The notes below the pieces were generated by a model, which was given only the letters and a program-made list of their open reading frames with translations, made no database searches and had not been told where the DNA came from. From contig CP070758.1 of assembly GCA_020348925.1 (NCBI GenBank), positions 4,903,583 through 4,923,155 on the forward strand: a DNA stretch of 19,573 nucleotides, read 5' to 3'. Made by a program: the position numbers and the translations under genes. Source of the stretch: Gemmatimonadota bacterium (GTDB lineage: Bacteria; JBHIER01; G020348925). Below, one piece after another: positions 2,503 through 11,678 of the stretch (positions within the stretch are counted from its first letter, which is position 1; every line of letters begins with the position of its first letter).

Positions 2503-5500
2503 TTAATTGTTATTCTTTCCTCTCAGAAAATCGATCATCGGCTGTGTGACAAGGGGGACCACATCGCCGATCATGTGCGGCATGAGGTTGTCCATCACCT
2601 TGGGCATGAGATCGGGCATCTGTTCTTTCATATAATCGGGCATAGGAATCCGCTCGGCCACACGTTCTAGCATGGTGGGCATAACTTTGGGCATCATCAT
2701 GGGCAGCAGCCGCGGAAAGAGAACCGGAAACATCGGTTTCATCATCTCAAGGGCCAGCGGTACCTTTCCCATAAAGCGCATCATCGAACCCATACCAAAG
2801 GGCATGGCATCAATGAGTTCCGACCACATCGTGCCCATGAGATCGGCAAAACCCTGGGGTGTCATGAGGGCAATCATCTTTTCGAACACAGCCCACTGGG
2901 CCTGGACTTCCGGGTTCGGATCAGGGAAATCGTAGCCCAGGGCCGAGGCGGCAAACCTGGCCAGATCCACAGTTTCTACGGGAACATCCCTCTTCTCGGC
3001 GCTGACCCGAAGCTGGAACTCACAGCAGGGACAGAGGGCCAAAACCTTATCGGCACCGGCCTCCACCGCCTCTTCAAGACGGGATTTGCCGATGTCGTGG
3101 GCCACAGGCGGATCTTTGATCAAGGTCAGAACAGATCCGCAGCAGTGGGCCTCTTCGTGATGGTGGCTCATCTCCACAAATTCCACATTCGGAATGGCCT
3201 TGATGACATCCCGCGGTGGCTCATACACACCGGAGGCGCGACCGATGTGGCACGAATCGTGCCAGGTGACTCTCATTTTCGAACCTTCCGAAGATGTTGA
3301 AACTTCGGAAGTCTTGGGGAAGTTGAATTCACCTGCCTTGATTTTCTCTGAAAGCACCTCACTGTAATGCCTGGCTGTAATGTCGTAATCGATACCCACT
3401 TTCTCGGCCCAGTCAGGATACACTTGTCGCCACATCATATCGCAGGCCGGACAGGAACTGATGACCGTATCGGCACCCGTGTCCCTGACGGCTTCGATGT
3501 TCTTCTTCATGGTTTCGACAAAGAGGTCCCACTTGCCGGCCACCAGCATCGGTGTCGCACAACAGTTCTCATTCTTTCCCACAATTGTAAAATCAACATT
3601 GGCGGCGCTCAGCAGCCGTACGCTGGCCTGGGCAATATCATGTTCAACATAGCTGGCCGTGCAGCCGGCAAAATAGACATTCTTCGATGTTCGTCCGGGT
3701 CCGTGCTTGTCCATCAGGTCTTCCGGGAACCATTCGATTCGATCCTTTCGATATCCGGCCCAAATATCTCCTTCGGCTTCCAATGCCGCTGCCATCATCT
3801 CAAAGGGCGGAAACGTCATTCTCTTCTCTTCCTGGATAAGTTGGCCGCGCAGCTTCATCCATGACGGTTCAATGGGCAAGGCCGCTGAACACCGAAGATT
3901 GCACATCTCGCACGTTGTGCAGACAAGCATGGTATCGATCATAAACTGGTTCCATTTTTCTCGACCTTCAATATACTCCCGCAACCAGTACCACTTGCCC
4001 CGGGGACTCTGGCTCTCCCAGCCGCGGCCATAAAACTGGTCGCATTCATCAATGCAATATCCGCACTGGGAACAGCTGTAGGCGTACCAAACCACATCGG
4101 CGGGAATGTTCCGAACCGGCTGGGTGTGACGCTCGCCCAGCTTGGGGAAGAAGCGGTTGCCCAGTGGTCGCATCAGTGGCTCGAAAGCGGTGGCCATTTT
4201 GACGACGGTACTGACCAATCCGCCGGAAATGACCTTACCCGGGTTCATAATCCCCTTGGGATCGATCTGGGCTTTGAATGCACGCAGTTTCTCAACTCTC
4301 TCTTTTCCCAAAATGGCATCTGCCTTCTTTGCGAAGTACAACCCGGTGGCGTATGGCCGGCCGCCGTGCTCCTCTGCGATTTTCATCAATGACAGTGACA
4401 GCCCAAAGACAAAGTTGTAGCCGAACTCGCGCTCGTCACTGGGAATGAATCCCAAAACGACCACCTCAGGCTGACCATCTTTCCCCTCGCGTATAACAAC
4501 ACCCTCCTTGACCAGCGGTTGTTGAATCTTGTTCTCAATTTCATCCATCACAACCCCGAGGTTGGACAGAGGAACGACGACTTCCGCTGGCACGAGGGAC
4601 GGTCCGAGACGCTTGACAATCATCAGTTTGAACCGATTCTCCCACTCGTGTTCGGCAATACGCTCGCTGAGCTCCTTGGCTTTGCACAATTGGAGCATTC
4701 TCTGGATATGTGGCCGAACGGATCCGCTGTCCTTGCTGCGAAAGGCCAGTGTCATAATATACATAACCGGGAGGAGAACACGCTCCTCGGCAGGGTGCCC
4801 GTGGTGCTCCATGAGCGGCGCCTGATTCTTGAGCTCGGCCATCTTCGGGTTGATAAAAGAGAGTGACCAGATAGGTATATCGGCGCTGATCAGGGATTCG
4901 ATCAACCACTGCAAGCCGCGCGATTCCGGACAACCGATGGAAATCACGTCAAGATCCTCAAGAGGTTGGACCTTCAGAGTGACCTCAGTGATGAGGCCCG
5001 TAATGCCTTCCGCGTCGGCGATGAGATCCAACTCGTTATCGGTGAACTCATTCACATCGCCTGTGGGCAGCACGACCCGTGCACTGAGAACATTGTCTTT
5101 GTACCAACCCGCCTCGTACGAACCGAATCCGGTCCCTCCCTGCGCCAGCCAGCCCCCGGCTGTGGATGAAGGATAACTGCTCGGATAGAGCCGCAAGGTG
5201 AGGTCATATTTTGCCAGTTCTCTGTCGAGTGATTCCCAAACCATCCCAGCCTCGACTGTGGCGGTTTGCCCTTCAGGATCGATGTTAATGGCTCGTTTCA
5301 TCCGGTAGAAATCGACCACGATACCTTTTTGGGTGGGAATAACCCCTCCGTAACCGGAGGACGCTTTGGCCCGAGGTGTCAGAGGGATGTTTTGCTCCCC
5401 CGCCCAGCGAACGAGCTCCACGACTTCCCCCTCATTGATCGGTTGAACAACAGCGTCGGGAGTTGTGTCGCCGATCAAAGGCTTGAACAGGCTTGGCATG

Positions 5501-5607
5501 GCTGCAATGTCGTGCCCATAGAGCTTCCGTTCAATCCTTTGAAAAGCGACTCGATCACCGAATGTTTCTCTGAGATATTCTTTTTGCTTTCGTGTCAATT
5601 TTCCCAT
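2503..5607 (-). CDS. FAD-linked oxidase / 4Fe-4S / CCG-domain fusion with a Met/Pro-rich C-terminal tail
   Basis: This 1034-residue protein combines a GlcD/D-lactate-dehydrogenase-type flavoprotein with an HdrD/GlpC-type Fe-S module. Residues about 45-215 form the FAD-binding domain (PRAKASSGYGG, GGWLAQGGTGFGSYEAG) and about 230-465 the FAD-oxidase C domain, ending in the typical IDPKGIMNPGK. Two 4Fe-4S motifs follow: C512/C515/C518/C522 and C563/C566/C569/C573. Then come two CCG (cysteine-rich) domains, with C649, CC682-683 and CPAC 719-722, and with C786, CC822-823 and CPCC 859-862. Members oxidise a 2-hydroxyacid or similar substrate and pass electrons to quinone, ferredoxin or a disulfide; the substrate is not visible here. 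Residues about 905-1034 are an unusual Met/Pro-rich tail. The start is preceded by only a weak ribosome-binding site. The gene lies 71 bp after the permease gene and 30 bp before rubrerythrin. Confidence 0.9.
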   Translation of the reverse strand: MGKLTRKQKEYLRETFGDRVAFQRIERKLYGHDIAAMPSLFKPLIGDTTPDAVVQPINEGEVVELVRWAGEQNIPLTPRAKASSGYGGVIPTQKGIVVDFYRMKRAINIDPEGQTATVEAGMVWESLDRELAKYDLTLRLYPSSYPSSTAGGWLAQGGTGFGSYEAGWYKDNVLSARVVLPTGDVNEFTDNELDLIADAEGITGLITEVTLKVQPLEDLDVISIGCPESRGLQWLIESLISADIPIWSLSFINPKMAELKNQAPLMEHHGHPAEERVLLPVMYIMTLAFRSKDSGSVRPHIQRMLQLCKAKELSERIAEHEWENRFKLMIVKRLGPSLVPAEVVVPLSNLGVVMDEIENKIQQPLVKEGVVIREGKDGQPEVVVLGFIPSDEREFGYNFVFGLSLSLMKIAEEHGGRPYATGLYFAKKADAILGKERVEKLRAFKAQIDPKGIMNPGKVISGGLVSTVVKMATAFEPLMRPLGNRFFPKLGERHTQPVRNIPADVVWYAYSCSQCGYCIDECDQFYGRGWESQSPRGKWYWLREYIEGREKWNQFMIDTMLVCTTCEMCNLRCSAALPIEPSWMKLRGQLIQEEKRMTFPPFEMMAAALEAEGDIWAGYRKDRIEWFPEDLMDKHGPGRTSKNVYFAGCTASYVEHDIAQASVRLLSAANVDFTIVGKNENCCATPMLVAGKWDLFVETMKKNIEAVRDTGADTVISSCPACDMMWRQVYPDWAEKVGIDYDITARHYSEVLSEKIKAGEFNFPKTSEVSTSSEGSKMRVTWHDSCHIGRASGVYEPPRDVIKAIPNVEFVEMSHHHEEAHCCGSVLTLIKDPPVAHDIGKSRLEEAVEAGADKVLALCPCCEFQLRVSAEKRDVPVETVDLARFAASALGYDFPDPNPEVQAQWAVFEKMIALMTPQGFADLMGTMWSELIDAMPFGMGSMMRFMGKVPLALEMMKPMFPVLFPRLLPMMMPKVMPTMLERVAERIPMPDYMKEQMPDLMPKVMDNLMPHMIGDVVPLVTQPMIDFLRGKNNN

Positions 5608-7024: not shown

Positions 7025-8254
7025 TCAGGAATAATTGAGCAACCTCTGCTCTCCTTTGAGTTTTCTTTTCTCCGTAAGATCCTGACTCACTTCCAATGTT
7101 CCGAGGTATCCATCATCCTCATCTCGAAGAGCAAAATATTCTATGTGTATAAACCGACCATCCAAATTGATCCAGAAAGCAGCTCTATCCTGTTTTCCAC
7201 ATCGAAAATCATCGAGAATCTGGTGGACAACGTGAACACTCGATGGCGGGTGACACAGTTGCACTTTTCGGCCAAGAATAGCCCGAGTCCGTGCGAAGAT
7301 GCGATCTTTCCCTTGAGTAAAATATCGAACCGTATCCTCTTTGTCGACAAAAGTCACGTCAAAGGGGATCGTGTTGAGCATGGCTATCAATTCAATCACA
7401 TTGAAGCTTCCGCTGGGGAGTTGAATTTTCTCTTCTTCGACAGTCAACTCTCTTTTTGCGACAACTCCCTCGGGCTGCCACACATCCGTCGGATCGTACA
7501 AGCAATAACCAATCTCAATACTCTGGATGGAGATCTCATACCACTCTTCGTCTGTCAATGTATCGAGGCACATTGGAAAGAGGATTTCTTCCTCCTTGTG
7601 TATCATCTCTTCCACTGCCGTAGAAGCGGGCTTGAAAGTACGCTCTACTGCTTTTTGAGCTTCTCCCACCTCCATCCCATCTGAACCTGCCAAAGTATCG
7701 AGTGCCCTTTTCAGCATGCCTCGAACCTCATCATGTTTACCCCACATGACCTTCGGTGGACCCGTGACACCATGTTTCTCGAGAAATGGAAAGAGAAGGT
7801 TCTCTTTCCTCATGTAATGTTTATCCACATCCATCAATGCGTTGAAATGTGCACGAATTTTGGCAAAGGGTTCCCGTGCATTATCCCGATCTTTCAATTT
7901 CTCCACTTCTGAATACAATTTCTCCAAAGAAGAAATTTCCCTAGCCAGAGCCCTATTCTCTTGAATGAACGTATGGACAGGATGTCCGGAGGGTGCCGTC
8001 TTGGCACCTGCCTGATCGAGAATACCCTTCAAAGCCGCAGTATGGACATCGCAGAGTCTCAGAACCTCCTCCTGGGGCAACCCCTCAGAGATAAGCTCCT
8101 GCTCAACCTCAACCACATCGCCATAGGGAATCTGTCCCAGTATTCTGACGAGTTGCTTCTTCACCTCTTCAGGTGCTTCCCCCTTATGAAGCTGAAGAAT
8201 CATGTGCTTCAGCATTTCCTTTCTTTTTTCTGCATTCTCAATAAGTTCACTCAT
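7025..8254 (-). CDS. DUF438 / hemerythrin-like / PAS domain protein
   Basis: This 409-residue cytoplasmic protein has three recognisable parts. Residues about 1-85 match DUF438 (MLKHMILQLHKGEAPEEVKK, then VLRLCDVHTAALKGIL). Residues about 90-230 form a hemerythrin-like helical bundle with candidate iron ligands H94, H136, H146, E150, H174, H219 and E223, including KHYMRKENLLFP and EEMIHKEEEILFP. Residues about 285-395 form a PAS domain (FDVTFVDKEDTVRYF, IHIEYFALRDEDDGYLGTLE). The diiron site could bind O2 or NO and the PAS domain a cofactor or small ligand, so a gas or redox sensor or a Fe-S repair function is plausible. There is no kinase or DNA-binding domain. The ATG at 8254 has a strong GGAGGGTG site. 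A 22-bp near-palindrome lies immediately upstream. Confidence 0.9.
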   Translation of the reverse strand: MSELIENAEKRKEMLKHMILQLHKGEAPEEVKKQLVRILGQIPYGDVVEVEQELISEGLPQEEVLRLCDVHTAALKGILDQAGAKTAPSGHPVHTFIQENRALAREISSLEKLYSEVEKLKDRDNAREPFAKIRAHFNALMDVDKHYMRKENLLFPFLEKHGVTGPPKVMWGKHDEVRGMLKRALDTLAGSDGMEVGEAQKAVERTFKPASTAVEEMIHKEEEILFPMCLDTLTDEEWYEISIQSIEIGYCLYDPTDVWQPEGVVAKRELTVEEEKIQLPSGSFNVIELIAMLNTIPFDVTFVDKEDTVRYFTQGKDRIFARTRAILGRKVQLCHPPSSVHVVHQILDDFRCGKQDRAAFWINLDGRFIHIEYFALRDEDDGYLGTLEVSQDLTEKRKLKGEQRLLNYS

Positions 8255-8359: not shown

Positions 8360-9955
8360 CTATTTAAAGGAAGTCAACTCCACCTTCTGTCGCTTATACA
8401 ACTCTTTCAGATCGTAATTCAGCGTGTCCATCAGCTCCTGGTGGAGCTCAGGGAGGTCGAACTGACGGCCAATCTCTGCCTCTCGATTCTCGTAAAGCTT
8501 GGTGTACAAATCCCACTGTTTTTCGGTCAACAGATCATTCTCGTGTGCGGCTTTCACATTGCTGTAGATCGTCTCCCAGTAATCGGGAATCCTGTCCATG
8601 GCCATGTCACCCCGGAGCGCCATGGCCGATGGTCCCCATGATCCGCCTGGGATATCATATAATGGGTAGAGCTTCATGAACTTATTAGGATCCTTGCTCT
8701 CTCGCCACATTCTGGCCTCAGGAACACCGTGTTCAGCGCCGTACTGGATAAGTTTCGCAAGATTTTCTTGAAGTTCCCAGATGCCGTGCCACTGGGTGTA
8801 GTCGGCTCCCATCATCTCCGCCCCATGGCGGAAACGGCGACCCTCGTGATGCCAGTTCTTGTAAGCAATGTGTTCCTGTTCTTCATCGTAGCCCACCACC
8901 GGCCACCCTGTGATCGCCTTGCCTTCGAACTCAAATTTGTCCGTCTTCACAACATCGTGCTGCCGGAGTAATCTCATCCACTTGATTGTGGCCTCCCAGA
9001 TTTCATTGTAGAGCAGATTACACAGGTCCGCAGTCAACAGGTAGCGATCGACGAAGGATCGAGCATGGCACTGATAGCAGACGCCCTCCATTCTCCGGCG
9101 TTTCTCCTGCCAGGAAAAACCGCCCCAGTATTCCTGCGTGCGCACGGAGAACGGCGCCTGACTCTCCCAGGTCAATCGATCACTCACATTGTGCGTAAAA
9201 TGATCGTTTGTCAACGTGCCACTCATGTGACATGTGGCACAGGTCGGTCCGGTAAATGTCACAGGCTCACCCGGCTCGTAATCCCAGTCATAATCCGAAG
9301 CAAAGGTGCTGTAAATATTTCCGTGCTTTGATTCGAGGAAAATCTCGATATGGGGATGATCCGGTCCGATGTGACATTCCCCGCAGGTCTCCGAATGCCG
9401 GGCCTGGGCGATATCGAAGCGATGCTTCGAATGGCAGGCGTCGCACTCGCCGATGCTCTGATCGGGCCAGTAATTTCCGATGTGATGGCATTGCTCGCAG
9501 CCGTGCTTGGTAGCCACTGTTGGCTCAAAGACATTTCGATCGGTCCCCTTGAGGGCCATAAAAGACTGACTGAGAACATGTTTGCTGTTGGCAAACTCTT
9601 TCACCTGAGTCTCATGGCACCCTTGACAATCCTTCGGTGTCGGATGTTTCCCGATAACGACCCTACTCTCGGGGCACCTCATCGCATCCCATTCACCCTC
9701 CTGGGCTTCATGGCATTCGATACACCCGATGCCCATTTCCGCGTGTTCGCTCAGTTTCCACTCTTCGACCAGTTTTGGCGCCACACCCTGCTTCTCGTGA
9801 CAATGGATGCAATCTCTTGTCGAACTGCTGATCTCGATCTCCGGTCGACGAAGGCGGGTTTTTTCCATTTCCACACCGGCAACAATCATCAAAACGACAA
9901 TAATAAGTGTCGAAAATATCCCGATCAGCCACTTCTGTCCCGTCACAGTATCCAT
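8360..9955 (-). CDS. Membrane-anchored octaheme c-type cytochrome, hydroxylamine-oxidoreductase (HAO) family
   Basis: The 531-residue protein starts with one uncleaved-looking signal anchor (residues about 8-28) and places the rest in the periplasm. It has eight CxxCH heme c sites, at C49, C78, C110, C153, C171, C191, C239 and C293, followed by a long heme-free helical C-terminus, as in HAO. This family oxidises hydroxylamine or hydrazine, or reduces nitrite or hydroxylamine, depending on whether a C-terminal Tyr crosslinks to the active heme. Y386, in GADYTQWHGIWEL, is a candidate but cannot be assigned by eye. A GAGGAGG site lies about 7 bases before the ATG. The gene follows the cytochrome b gene by 197 bp. 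With Rieske and cytochrome b it would complete a quinol-oxidising complex. Confidence 0.88.
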   Translation of the reverse strand: MDTVTGQKWLIGIFSTLIIVVLMIVAGVEMEKTRLRRPEIEISSSTRDCIHCHEKQGVAPKLVEEWKLSEHAEMGIGCIECHEAQEGEWDAMRCPESRVVIGKHPTPKDCQGCHETQVKEFANSKHVLSQSFMALKGTDRNVFEPTVATKHGCEQCHHIGNYWPDQSIGECDACHSKHRFDIAQARHSETCGECHIGPDHPHIEIFLESKHGNIYSTFASDYDWDYEPGEPVTFTGPTCATCHMSGTLTNDHFTHNVSDRLTWESQAPFSVRTQEYWGGFSWQEKRRRMEGVCYQCHARSFVDRYLLTADLCNLLYNEIWEATIKWMRLLRQHDVVKTDKFEFEGKAITGWPVVGYDEEQEHIAYKNWHHEGRRFRHGAEMMGADYTQWHGIWELQENLAKLIQYGAEHGVPEARMWRESKDPNKFMKLYPLYDIPGGSWGPSAMALRGDMAMDRIPDYWETIYSNVKAAHENDLLTEKQWDLYTKLYENREAEIGRQFDLPELHQELMDTLNYDLKELYKRQKVELTSFK

Positions 9956-10152
9956 AATCTCGCCTCCTCATTTTGTTTCACTTAAGCATTTCACCTTTTC
10001 ATTCATCAATTATCAGTCCAGCCCCTGGAATCGAAGACGGGGTGCACTCCGGGCCCGAATCCCCTAACGTAACCTAACATACTCTCTATTCAAGAGATTC
10101 CGGGAGAAACCCGGAATGACAGAGTAGAGAACGGTCAATTTTCGAACACGGT
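9956..10152. other. Spacer between cytochrome b and octaheme genes with a perfect hairpin
   Basis: This 197-bp spacer is longer than most gaps in the run. It holds the hairpin listed separately (10083-10130), a GC-rich patch (about 10020-10065) with short complementary G and C runs, and the strong ribosome-binding site of the octaheme gene at its lower end. No open frame of note is present. It may separate two transcripts or carry an RNA processing signal that adjusts the ratio of cytochrome b to octaheme subunit. Confidence 0.5.
10083..10130. repeat. Palindromic hairpin element (ATTCCGGG ... CCCGGAAT)
   Basis: ATTCCGGG at 10097-10104 and CCCGGAAT at 10110-10117 form a perfect 8-bp stem around AGAAA. 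The flanks TCTCTA (10083-10088) and TAGAGA (10125-10130) are also complementary, so an imperfect longer stem is possible. The form 'ATTCCGGG...CCCGGAATGAC' resembles the dispersed intergenic palindromes (REP-like or small non-autonomous elements) found in many bacterial genomes. No second copy was noticed in this window. No poly-T follows on the minus strand, so a standard terminator is less likely than an mRNA-stabilising hairpin. Confidence 0.6.
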
Positions 10153-11211
10153 TCAATGCGGCGTCAATAGGATCTCTTTTGCAATGACCAGCAGAAAAAT
10201 GAGAATTGCCGCTGCTCCTACAACATAGTGAATCTTCAGATTGGGAACGCGTTTCCCAATAAATTCATCGATAAAAGGCCAGAAGACGAAGAACAGGCCA
10301 AGGATCATCAATACGGACATGCCGACCTGCATGGGCATCACTTTCAGAGCAAAATAGACAAAGATAAAATACCATTCCGGCTTGATATGGGCGGGTGTTA
10401 CAGCGGGATCAGCGGGTTCTCCCATACCGGGCGGGGACATCACGGACAGCGTGCTGAGAACCGCCACGAAGAACAAGGTCAAAATAACAACCTTGAAAAA
10501 ATGTTCCGGGTAGAAGGCGTAGAAGCCCTCCCCCTCTCTCCCCTCAAGCTCCGCCATACCGTGTAAACGCAGGATAAAAATATGGACGAACATCAAGAAA
10601 AGGAGCAGCGGTGGCAGGAGGGTCACATGGAACGTGAAAAATCGTGTCAGTGTGTTCGCACTGACCTCCTCTCCCCCCCGGAAAAATTGCAGCAAGGCGT
10701 TTCCAATAATCGGTACCGACTTGACCGAGTTTGTGCCGACCGTCGTCGCCCAATAGGACACCTGATTCTGAATGAGCGAATAGCCTGTTAAAGATAATCC
10801 CAGGCAGATTCCCAACAAACCGACACCAATCATCCAGTTCAGCTCGCGGGGACGGCGATAGGCTCGTGTGAAGAAGACTCGAATGATATGGAGAATGAGG
10901 GCCATAATAAGCAGATTCGAGCCCCAGCGGTGAAGGCCCCGGATCCAGAAACCAAAACGGACCTCCTCCGTAATATACCGCACACTTTCATAGGCCATCT
11001 CAGGTGAAGGTATGTAATAAAACATCAGCAGGATGCCCGTAACAATCTGAAACATAATGAGAAGAAGAGGTGCGGCACCCGTAGCAAACCACCATTTCTT
11101 ATAGTGTAGGGGAATTGGCTCTTTGGCGAAGACCTTTTCACTAATTTCCACAAAACGGCCGTAGTCGATAGGAAATCGCTCAACGATCCACTCTTTGATC
11201 TTCATCGTCAA
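10153..11211 (-). CDS. Cytochrome b (fused b6/subunit IV type) of a Rieske/cytochrome b complex
   Basis: This 352-residue integral membrane protein is long enough to carry both the b6-like four-helix heme domain and a subunit IV-like part. Heme b ligand pairs are H94/H108 (LHRWGSNLLIMALILH) and H195/H210 (TFHVTLLP to VHIFIL). The second pair is spaced by 14 residues, as in b6 rather than mitochondrial-type cytochrome b. The quinol-site motif PEWY is at 278-281, within HIKPEWYFIFVYFALK. The only cysteine is C136, so there is no N-terminal Cys of the kind that binds heme cn in b6f complexes. It oxidises quinol and passes electrons to the Rieske protein. Its start overlaps the Rieske stop by 4 bp (ATGA), showing translational coupling. 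Confidence 0.95.
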   Translation of the reverse strand: MTMKIKEWIVERFPIDYGRFVEISEKVFAKEPIPLHYKKWWFATGAAPLLLIMFQIVTGILLMFYYIPSPEMAYESVRYITEEVRFGFWIRGLHRWGSNLLIMALILHIIRVFFTRAYRRPRELNWMIGVGLLGICLGLSLTGYSLIQNQVSYWATTVGTNSVKSVPIIGNALLQFFRGGEEVSANTLTRFFTFHVTLLPPLLLFLMFVHIFILRLHGMAELEGREGEGFYAFYPEHFFKVVILTLFFVAVLSTLSVMSPPGMGEPADPAVTPAHIKPEWYFIFVYFALKVMPMQVGMSVLMILGLFFVFWPFIDEFIGKRVPNLKIHYVVGAAAILIFLLVIAKEILLTPH

Positions 11212-11678
11212 ATGACAGGCTCCCTTTTCCTGATGTGCACAAAAACGAGGGAACCCTCCACCAGGACTTCGAATTCATCCAACGGACGAGGAGAAGGACC
11301 CGCCAGGACCGTGCCGTCATTGTCAAACACCGCCTTATGACAGGGACAGTAGAATTGATTTTCCCTCTCTTTCCACTTTACAATACATCCAAGATGGGGA
11401 CATACGCCGGAAAAAACTCTGAATCCTTCAGGCAGATGAGTGACAAAAACAGGCTTGTTTCCAATTGATATTTCCTTGGCTTTTCCGACAGGAATATCTT
11501 TCGCCTTCCCGACCAAGTATTTTGTATACTCTCTTTCCCGGGATTTTGGGAAAAGAAAAAGAAATCCACTCCGCAACACGAATAACCCTGTCAGAAGAAT
11601 TCCCCCGACGGCCACGAATCCCGAAGCCAGAAAATATCTCCGGGACGTCCGGGTCGCTTTCTCTTCGTGATCGCTCAT
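11208..11678 (-). CDS. Rieske [2Fe-2S] protein of the cytochrome b complex
   Basis: The 156-residue protein has a Tat-type N-terminus (TSRRYFLASGFVAVGG, residues 11-26) running into one membrane anchor (about 17-43), with the cluster domain outside. Cluster ligands are C93 and H95 in CPHLGC and C111 and H114 in CPCHKAVF; C98 and C113 would form the disulfide typical of high-potential Rieske proteins of bc1 and b6f complexes. A short internal duplication (GKAKDIPVGKAKEISIG, 57-73) precedes the cluster domain. The protein takes electrons from quinol at the cytochrome b Qo site and hands them on, here presumably to the octaheme cytochrome, as no cytochrome c1 or f gene is present. CAGGAGAC precedes the ATG. 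It heads the Rieske-cytochrome b-octaheme gene set. Confidence 0.96.
   Translation of the reverse strand: MSDHEEKATRTSRRYFLASGFVAVGGILLTGLFVLRSGFLFLFPKSREREYTKYLVGKAKDIPVGKAKEISIGNKPVFVTHLPEGFRVFSGVCPHLGCIVKWKERENQFYCPCHKAVFDNDGTVLAGPSPRPLDEFEVLVEGSLVFVHIRKREPVI

Follow-up and report, generated by a model that had tools for sequence, protein, structure and literature searches.

A Rieske/cytochrome b gene pair adjoining an octaheme cytochrome of the hydroxylamine oxidoreductase family in a Gemmatimonadota bacterium

RESULTS

Three consecutive genes encode a Rieske protein, a fused cytochrome b, and an octaheme cytochrome

We analyzed a 19,573-nucleotide stretch of DNA from a Gemmatimonadota bacterium (GenBank assembly GCA_020348925.1, contig CP070758.1, positions 4,903,583 to 4,923,155), referred to here as the window. 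It carries three consecutive genes, all on the minus strand, for a Rieske protein of the twin-arginine translocation (Tat) type, a cytochrome b of the b6f type, and an octaheme c-type cytochrome with the fold of hydroxylamine oxidoreductase (HAO) (Table 1). This gene set, described earlier from the sequence alone (the original prediction), is confirmed. The Rieske protein has a twin-arginine motif (SRRYFL), one transmembrane helix, and the cluster motif CPHLGC...CPCH (PF00355, 2.5e-14). The cytochrome b chain matches both PF00033 (2.9e-48) and PF00032 (8.8e-10), and the b6 and subunit IV parts are therefore assigned to a single chain. The octaheme protein contains exactly eight CxxCH motifs and matches PF13447 (3.4e-22); it also matches the NCBIfam hydrazine dehydrogenase (HDH) model at 5e-23, with a score far under the cutoff of that model. 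Many separate genomes retain the heme motifs, the active-site residues, and the gene order (see below), which excludes a chance arrangement.

Table 1. Positions of the module, its landmarks, and the adjoining gene in the window
Feature	Position	Strand	Remarks
Tat-type Rieske [2Fe-2S] protein	11208..11678	-	156 aa
Cytochrome b, b6f type, b6 and subunit IV fused	10153..11205	-	350-352 aa
Dispersed genomic repeat copy between cytochrome b and octaheme genes	10013..10126, within 9990-10152	.	
Octaheme c-type cytochrome, HAO fold, probable terminal reductase subunit	8360..9955	-	531 aa
Octaheme N-terminal transmembrane helix, residues 7-31	9863..9937	-	hydrophobic; AxA signal-peptidase motif absent
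Fourth heme motif CEQCH, residues 153-157	9485..9499	-	homologous to HAO heme 4, hence taken as catalytic heme
Asp199-His200	9356..9361	-	matches Asp-His pair of true HAO in alignment; almost all relatives have it
Octaheme C-terminal extension, residues 405-531	8363..8743	-	helical in model
DUF438-hemerythrin-PAS protein	7025..8254	-	directly downstream of octaheme, same strand

The Rieske and cytochrome b genes had been thought to be coupled by an ATGA overlap. The junction instead reads TGA-CG-ATG, with the cytochrome b ATG at 11205, two bases past the Rieske stop, and an overlap arises only with an alternative TTG start at 11211. A genuine ATGA-type overlap is found in the nearest relative (locus L007). 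The gap between the cytochrome b and octaheme genes is 197 bp, versus 16 to 55 bp in the relatives measured, because a copy of a dispersed repeat has been inserted there. This repeat is present in at least 40 copies in the genome, and its 44-bp core is 91 to 95% identical in many of them. Intergenic terminator and promoter scans within the locus gave no more signal than shuffled sequence.

The host genome lacks the usual partners of a Rieske/cytochrome b pair

The genome (5.04 Mb, one contig, estimated to be 96.3% complete, and the only member of its phylum in our search set) encodes exactly one Rieske protein and one PF00033 cytochrome b. Family searches found neither cytochrome c1 nor cytochrome f, either adjoining the module or in the whole genome, so that the absence of a c1/f gene from the locus, as originally noted, extends genome-wide. 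The pair thus has no separate c1/f partner encoded elsewhere (the presence of one would have counted against the original prediction), and the genome lacks the c1 or f subunit that marks a b6f-type complex. Heme-copper oxidases or nitric oxide (NO) reductases of the COX1 family and NrfA were likewise not found genome-wide. Six proteins match the molybdopterin enzyme family PF00384. Of these, we examined an ArrA-like arsenate reductase, a PhsA-like enzyme, and a formate-dehydrogenase-like fusion; another lies inside a complex I cluster and is NuoG, judging by its neighbors, and one carries an in-frame TGA. No recognizable nitrate reductase is among them, and in no case was NapA or NarG the best-matching model. 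Since c1, f, COX1-type enzymes, and NrfA are absent, no conventional acceptor for the Rieske electrons was found (bd-type oxidases were not searched for).

Features of the Rieske protein and cytochrome b

Among solved Rieske proteins, those closest to the window protein are of the b6f type, and Kuste4569 (9RK4) ranks second. The CxHxGC and CPCH motifs show little or no variation among 11 sequences. At the second-sphere positions of serine and tyrosine, the window protein has Ala116 and Phe118 (CPCHKAVFD); the serine is absent from all 11 aligned members, and the tyrosine occurs only in L013. In Kuste4569, from an anammox bacterium, Ser127 and Tyr129 raise the potential, which is +303 mV (PMC12954380). 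The substitutions therefore predict a low-potential, menaquinol-type Rieske protein in the window, unlike that of anammox, although predictions of this kind can fail, as for Kustd1480 (PMC12954380).

Cytochrome b shows seven hydrophobic segments by hydropathy and two His pairs spaced 14 and 15 residues apart. These pairs (H89/H103 and H190/H205), which have b6f spacing, and the K-PEWY motif are invariant among the aligned members. At the position of the heme c_n cysteine, the window and L007 have Ala, and 6 of the 15 aligned members have Cys. A structure model of cytochrome b had a predicted local distance difference test score (pLDDT) of 53 and was not used.

The octaheme protein has the HAO fold but not the HAO cross-linking tyrosine

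An AlphaFold2 model of the octaheme protein (pLDDT of 79.5, predicted template modeling score of 0.77) was compared with solved structures. The best match was the membrane-associated octaheme of Ignicoccus hospitalis (4QO5; Z score of 23.5 over 358 residues at 3.0 Å), which is also the top sequence match among solved structures (27% identity), followed by the Kuenenia reducing HAO-like protein 6H5L (Kustc0457/Kustc0458; Z score of 21.4). Z scores were 18 to 20 against HAO and HDH and 7.6 to 9.5 against NrfA, ONR, and OcwA. The HAO fold is assigned because all HAO-type structures listed score 18 to 23.5, versus 7.6 to 9.5 for the latter group. Residues 435 to 531, taken as part of the full model, had no convincing match in VIA-align (best Z score of ~4).

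In HAO, a tyrosine cross-link to the catalytic heme has an established role in oxidation. Tyr467 of the Nitrosomonas enzyme (GGWTYTEGW; numbering from the 1FGJ alignment) corresponds, via Ruegeria HAO, to Gln388 of the window octaheme in all four MAFFT modes. None of 38 family members has Y in this column, where the residues are Q, W, H, L, or S. An ungapped reading places Asp385 at the Tyr467 position, and nearby Tyr386, two residues from Gln388, is Phe in two members of the clade; the alignment is thus uncertain by a few residues, yet no conserved tyrosine is available there. Of 39 aligned sequences (Ruegeria HAO included), 38 retain the Asp-His pair. The window octaheme therefore lacks the cross-linking tyrosine of HAO and HDH proper and resembles eHao-type proteins, in which that residue is absent and the Asp-His pair is retained, except that Rieske and cytochrome b genes stand in place of the NapC/CycX partner.

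The quinol-dehydrogenase partner differs between octaheme clades

Relatives were sought in a scan of 84,980 species genomes and in a further search of 40 Calditrichota genomes; the loci recovered are identified by L numbers. The scan returned 11 full-length octaheme relatives at 49 to 80% identity, with the next ones at ≤39%. Rieske and cytochrome b genes precede the octaheme gene in the same order in every member of this first group with enough upstream DNA (L007 to L010, L012 to L015, and L017). In L016 the end of cytochrome b is visible at the contig edge, and in L011 the contig begins inside the octaheme gene. The Calditrichota search added six loci with both genes (L104 and L108 to L112) and one with cytochrome b in which the Rieske gene is cut off (L107). 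With the window included, 16 loci are complete, 2 are partial but consistent, 1 is uninformative, and none is an exception, and the synteny on which the original prediction depended is thus upheld. A search of plasmids with cytochrome b as query returned nothing beyond generic bc-type matches at ~30% identity.

More distant octahemes, mostly from Desulfobacterota, have a different partner. A NapC/NrfH-type gene lies directly upstream in 67 of 69 such loci, the other 2 being cut by contig ends, and none of the 69 has Rieske/cytochrome b genes beside the octaheme gene. The octahemes paired with Rieske/cytochrome b form a single clade (IQ-TREE support, 100/100) drawn from at least four phyla, including Calditrichota, Zixibacteria, Fidelibacterota (Neomarinimicrobiota), and Ignavibacteriota; its branch is long, the tree program warns of long branches, and its exact sister is uncertain. 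The partner gene switches with the octaheme clade, and we conclude that the quinol-dehydrogenase partner differs by clade.

In several relatives the module adjoins genes of nitrogen oxide respiration. In Calditrichota, napA-napG-napH immediately precede it, and napA and/or napG-napH lie upstream in L010, L012, L014, and the probable Caldithrix abyssi locus L132; nrfH and nrfA lie upstream in L015 (Ignavibacteria), and L017 shows the same heme pattern there. Small tetraheme cytochromes are encoded near the module in L132, L133, L015, and L017, while no such gene is present in the window or beside the module in L007. Two further Calditrichota loci show other arrangements: L133:2002-5201 combines Rieske, cytochrome b, and an octaheme of a different lineage (~30% identity), also with a hydrophobic N terminus, and L134:4043-8574 has the order octaheme-Rieske-cytochrome b-nonaheme beside napGH.

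An N-terminal helix is the most conserved part of the octaheme protein

Among 18 clade members, the N-terminal helix has a mean pairwise identity of 76%, versus 68% for the heme domain, making it the most conserved stretch of the protein. The same region of NapC-paired homologs is an ordinary signal peptide, at 18% identity. A helix that was merely cleaved would not stay conserved, so we read it as an anchor touching other subunits; it is probably uncleaved and would hold the octaheme in the complex. This suggests that the octaheme takes the place of c1/f as an integral subunit. The clade also has a loop after heme 4 that is ~20 residues shorter than in NapC-paired relatives and a C-terminal extension of >100 residues that is mostly absent or short in them.

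Neighboring genes and other redox proteins of the genome

Neither the window nor L007 has Nap or Nrf neighbors around the module. Stress and metal genes surround the window module; the neighbors are rubrerythrin and hemerythrin-PAS genes and, in L007, desulfoferrodoxin and ferritin-like genes. The DUF438-hemerythrin-PAS protein of the window may be an associated sensor or detoxification protein and is a candidate member of the module only. In a Calditrichota genome, a 55% identical gene (L128:2708-3595) comes after another HAO-family octaheme, and its recurrence next to two octahemes hints at a common theme of N-oxide sensing or repair. Adjoining the rubrerythrin gene is a GlcD/GlcF-type fusion of 1,034 amino acids (2503-5607) that joins an FAD-linked oxidase to an iron-sulfur CCG-domain reductase.

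Elsewhere in the genome, a second HAO-fold octaheme (L003, G000:C1:1931512-1931841; L096:9009-10550) is 25% identical to that of the window. Rieske, cytochrome b, and NapC are absent from its adjoining genes, and by motifs its active-site region is nearer to Ignicoccus 4QO5 than is that of the window octaheme. An ArrA-like respiratory arsenate reductase gene (L098:4410-6947; 1,296 bits against a family cutoff of 1,600) has FeS and NrfD-like neighbors. A frame of 1,134 amino acids (L095:6256-9660) fuses a formate-dehydrogenase-like molybdopterin enzyme with a NifS-like cysteine desulfurase.

DISCUSSION

Relation to known systems

The direct precedent for the module is Caldithrix abyssi, and the idea itself is not new. 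In 2017, Rieske and cytochrome b genes were described in that organism between napH and the eHao gene, with c1 absent nearby, and electron transfer from Rieske/cytochrome b to eHao was proposed, directly or through NapM (PMC5317091). The gene order of Cabys_2558 and Cabys_2557 (Rieske/cytochrome b) and Cabys_2556 (eHao) is identical to that in the window, the octahemes are ~52% identical, and that of the probable C. abyssi locus (L110/L132) falls in the same clade. The C. abyssi module closes a napM-napA-napG-napH cluster, whereas the window and L007 modules stand alone and the window genome has no Nap.

The original prediction pointed to anammox bacteria for comparable gene sets. The similar subunit theme holds, but the nearest precedent is C. 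abyssi. In the anammox Kuste4569-4574 set, b6f-like parts and an HAO-like octaheme are accompanied by an extra multiheme cytochrome and an NAD(P) oxidoreductase; comigration of its subunits was reported, but the assembly could not be modeled with the octaheme (PMC12954380). It shares with the window a b6f-type cytochrome b and a Rieske protein together with an HAO-like octaheme. The separate cytochrome b and subunit IV, the extra multiheme cytochrome, the NAD(P) oxidoreductase, and the Ser127/Tyr129 Rieske protein of Kuenenia have no counterpart in the window module, and Kuste4569-4574 is an analogous but larger system. The eHao octahemes paired with NapC/CycX in Desulfobacterota and Campylobacterota are homologous to the window protein, have the same catalytic motifs, and also lack the cross-linking tyrosine. 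They differ in their NapC/NrfH-type tetraheme quinol dehydrogenase, ordinary signal peptide, extra loop after heme 4, and lack of a long C-terminal extension. We did not find conservation across four phyla, alternation with NapC, or the conserved anchor in the literature searched (mostly open papers), which is no proof of novelty.

A putative quinol:N-oxide oxidoreductase

We favor, with moderate confidence, a model in which the three proteins form one membrane complex that acts as a quinol:N-oxide oxidoreductase. Quinol would be oxidized at the cytochrome b/Rieske site, and a single electron would go from the Rieske cluster to the octaheme cytochrome, which would occupy the place of cytochrome c1/f with its N-terminal helix as membrane anchor. 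For the octaheme we propose reduction of a small N-oxide in the periplasm; nitrite, with ammonium as product, is the likeliest substrate, and hydroxylamine or NO is possible. The coupling of a quinol-oxidizing Rieske/cytochrome b pair to an HAO-type cytochrome, the core of the original prediction, is supported. A stronger version, that the complex has the octaheme as an obligate terminal subunit integral to the membrane, that one enzyme couples Q-cycle quinol oxidation directly to nitrite ammonification, and that this enzyme originated in a swap of quinol-dehydrogenase partners, independently of the larger anammox complex, is put forward tentatively, at somewhat less than even odds.

Several points weigh against the favored model. 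Assembly into one complex and its activity are predictions. The model leaves a symmetry mismatch between an HAO homotrimer and Rieske/cytochrome b dimers, and in the window a genomic repeat parts the cytochrome b gene from the octaheme gene. The window genome has no Nap, Nar, or NrfA and the neighbors are stress and metal genes, for which reason a respiratory nitrite role here is an analogy with relatives. Nitrite in this organism would need an outside source, or the enzyme may serve the removal of NO, hydroxylamine, or nitrite. Finally, the small tetraheme NapM of C. abyssi could be the real electron carrier (PMC5317091).

This last point leads to an arrangement of two modules in one operon, in which Rieske/cytochrome b would reduce a soluble carrier, for example a NapM-type tetraheme, that feeds the octaheme. 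Such a route was put forward as the main one in C. abyssi (PMC5317091), and it fits the small tetraheme cytochromes near four of the relatives' modules. The window and the neighborhood of the L007 module lack a tetraheme gene, however, and a soluble hand-over does not require the anchor helix conserved specifically in the Rieske/cytochrome b clade; we regard this route as unlikely. We would give rather more weight, while still doubting it, to the same complex acting here on another substrate, in detoxification of hydroxylamine or NO or on a sulfur oxyanion. The absence of nitrate reductase and NrfA from the genome would suit such a role, as would the rubrerythrin and hemerythrin-PAS neighbors and the desulfoferrodoxin and ferritin genes of L007, and Desulfobacterota HAO-family octahemes have been hypothesized to reduce sulfur species (PMC9213671). 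That proposal is labeled speculative by its own authors (PMC9213671), and relatives of the same clade adjoin nap or nrf genes.

The direction of electron flow, which the original prediction left open, is best read as reductive, because the cross-linking tyrosine is absent and the module adjoins napAGH or nrfHA in relatives; both direction and substrate are predictions. HAO-family proteins of Campylobacterota convert nitrite to ammonium in vitro (PMC9213671). The reverse, in which the octaheme would oxidize hydroxylamine or another N compound and feed Rieske/cytochrome b and the quinone pool, would be in keeping with the fold, as in HAO and HDH, and with the retained Asp-His pair. We nevertheless hold it to be very improbable. 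Besides the missing tyrosine and the nap/nrf context, high-potential electrons entering at the Rieske protein would need an uphill drive to quinone, and neither ammonia-oxidation nor hydrazine genes turned up in the stretches that were read, although these were not searched for genome-wide. Anammox-like bifurcation, with octaheme-driven nitrite reduction pushing a second electron to NAD(P)+, has in its favor the subunit theme similar to that of Kuste4569-4574 (PMC12954380). The NAD(P) oxidoreductase subunit and the linking hexaheme are missing from the window gene set, and bifurcation needs a high potential, but the window Rieske protein has neither of the two residues, Ser and Tyr, that support that of Kuste4569; we give it hardly any credence.

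Significance

When nitrite ammonification draws on a quinol dehydrogenase of the NapC/NrfH type, the general view is that this step translocates no protons. Unlike the NapC/NrfH route of the sister octahemes, nitrite reduction by the proposed complex would be proton-translocating, provided that cytochrome b operates a normal Q cycle. The module is a further example of a known but little-described kind. If the model is correct, a Rieske/cytochrome b complex ending in a reductase would make the nitrite ammonification step proton-translocating, and a catalytic multiheme enzyme would be able to stand in for cytochrome c1/f. With its three genes, the module is much simpler than the anammox assembly, and Caldithrix abyssi, as a cultivated relative, makes the question directly testable.

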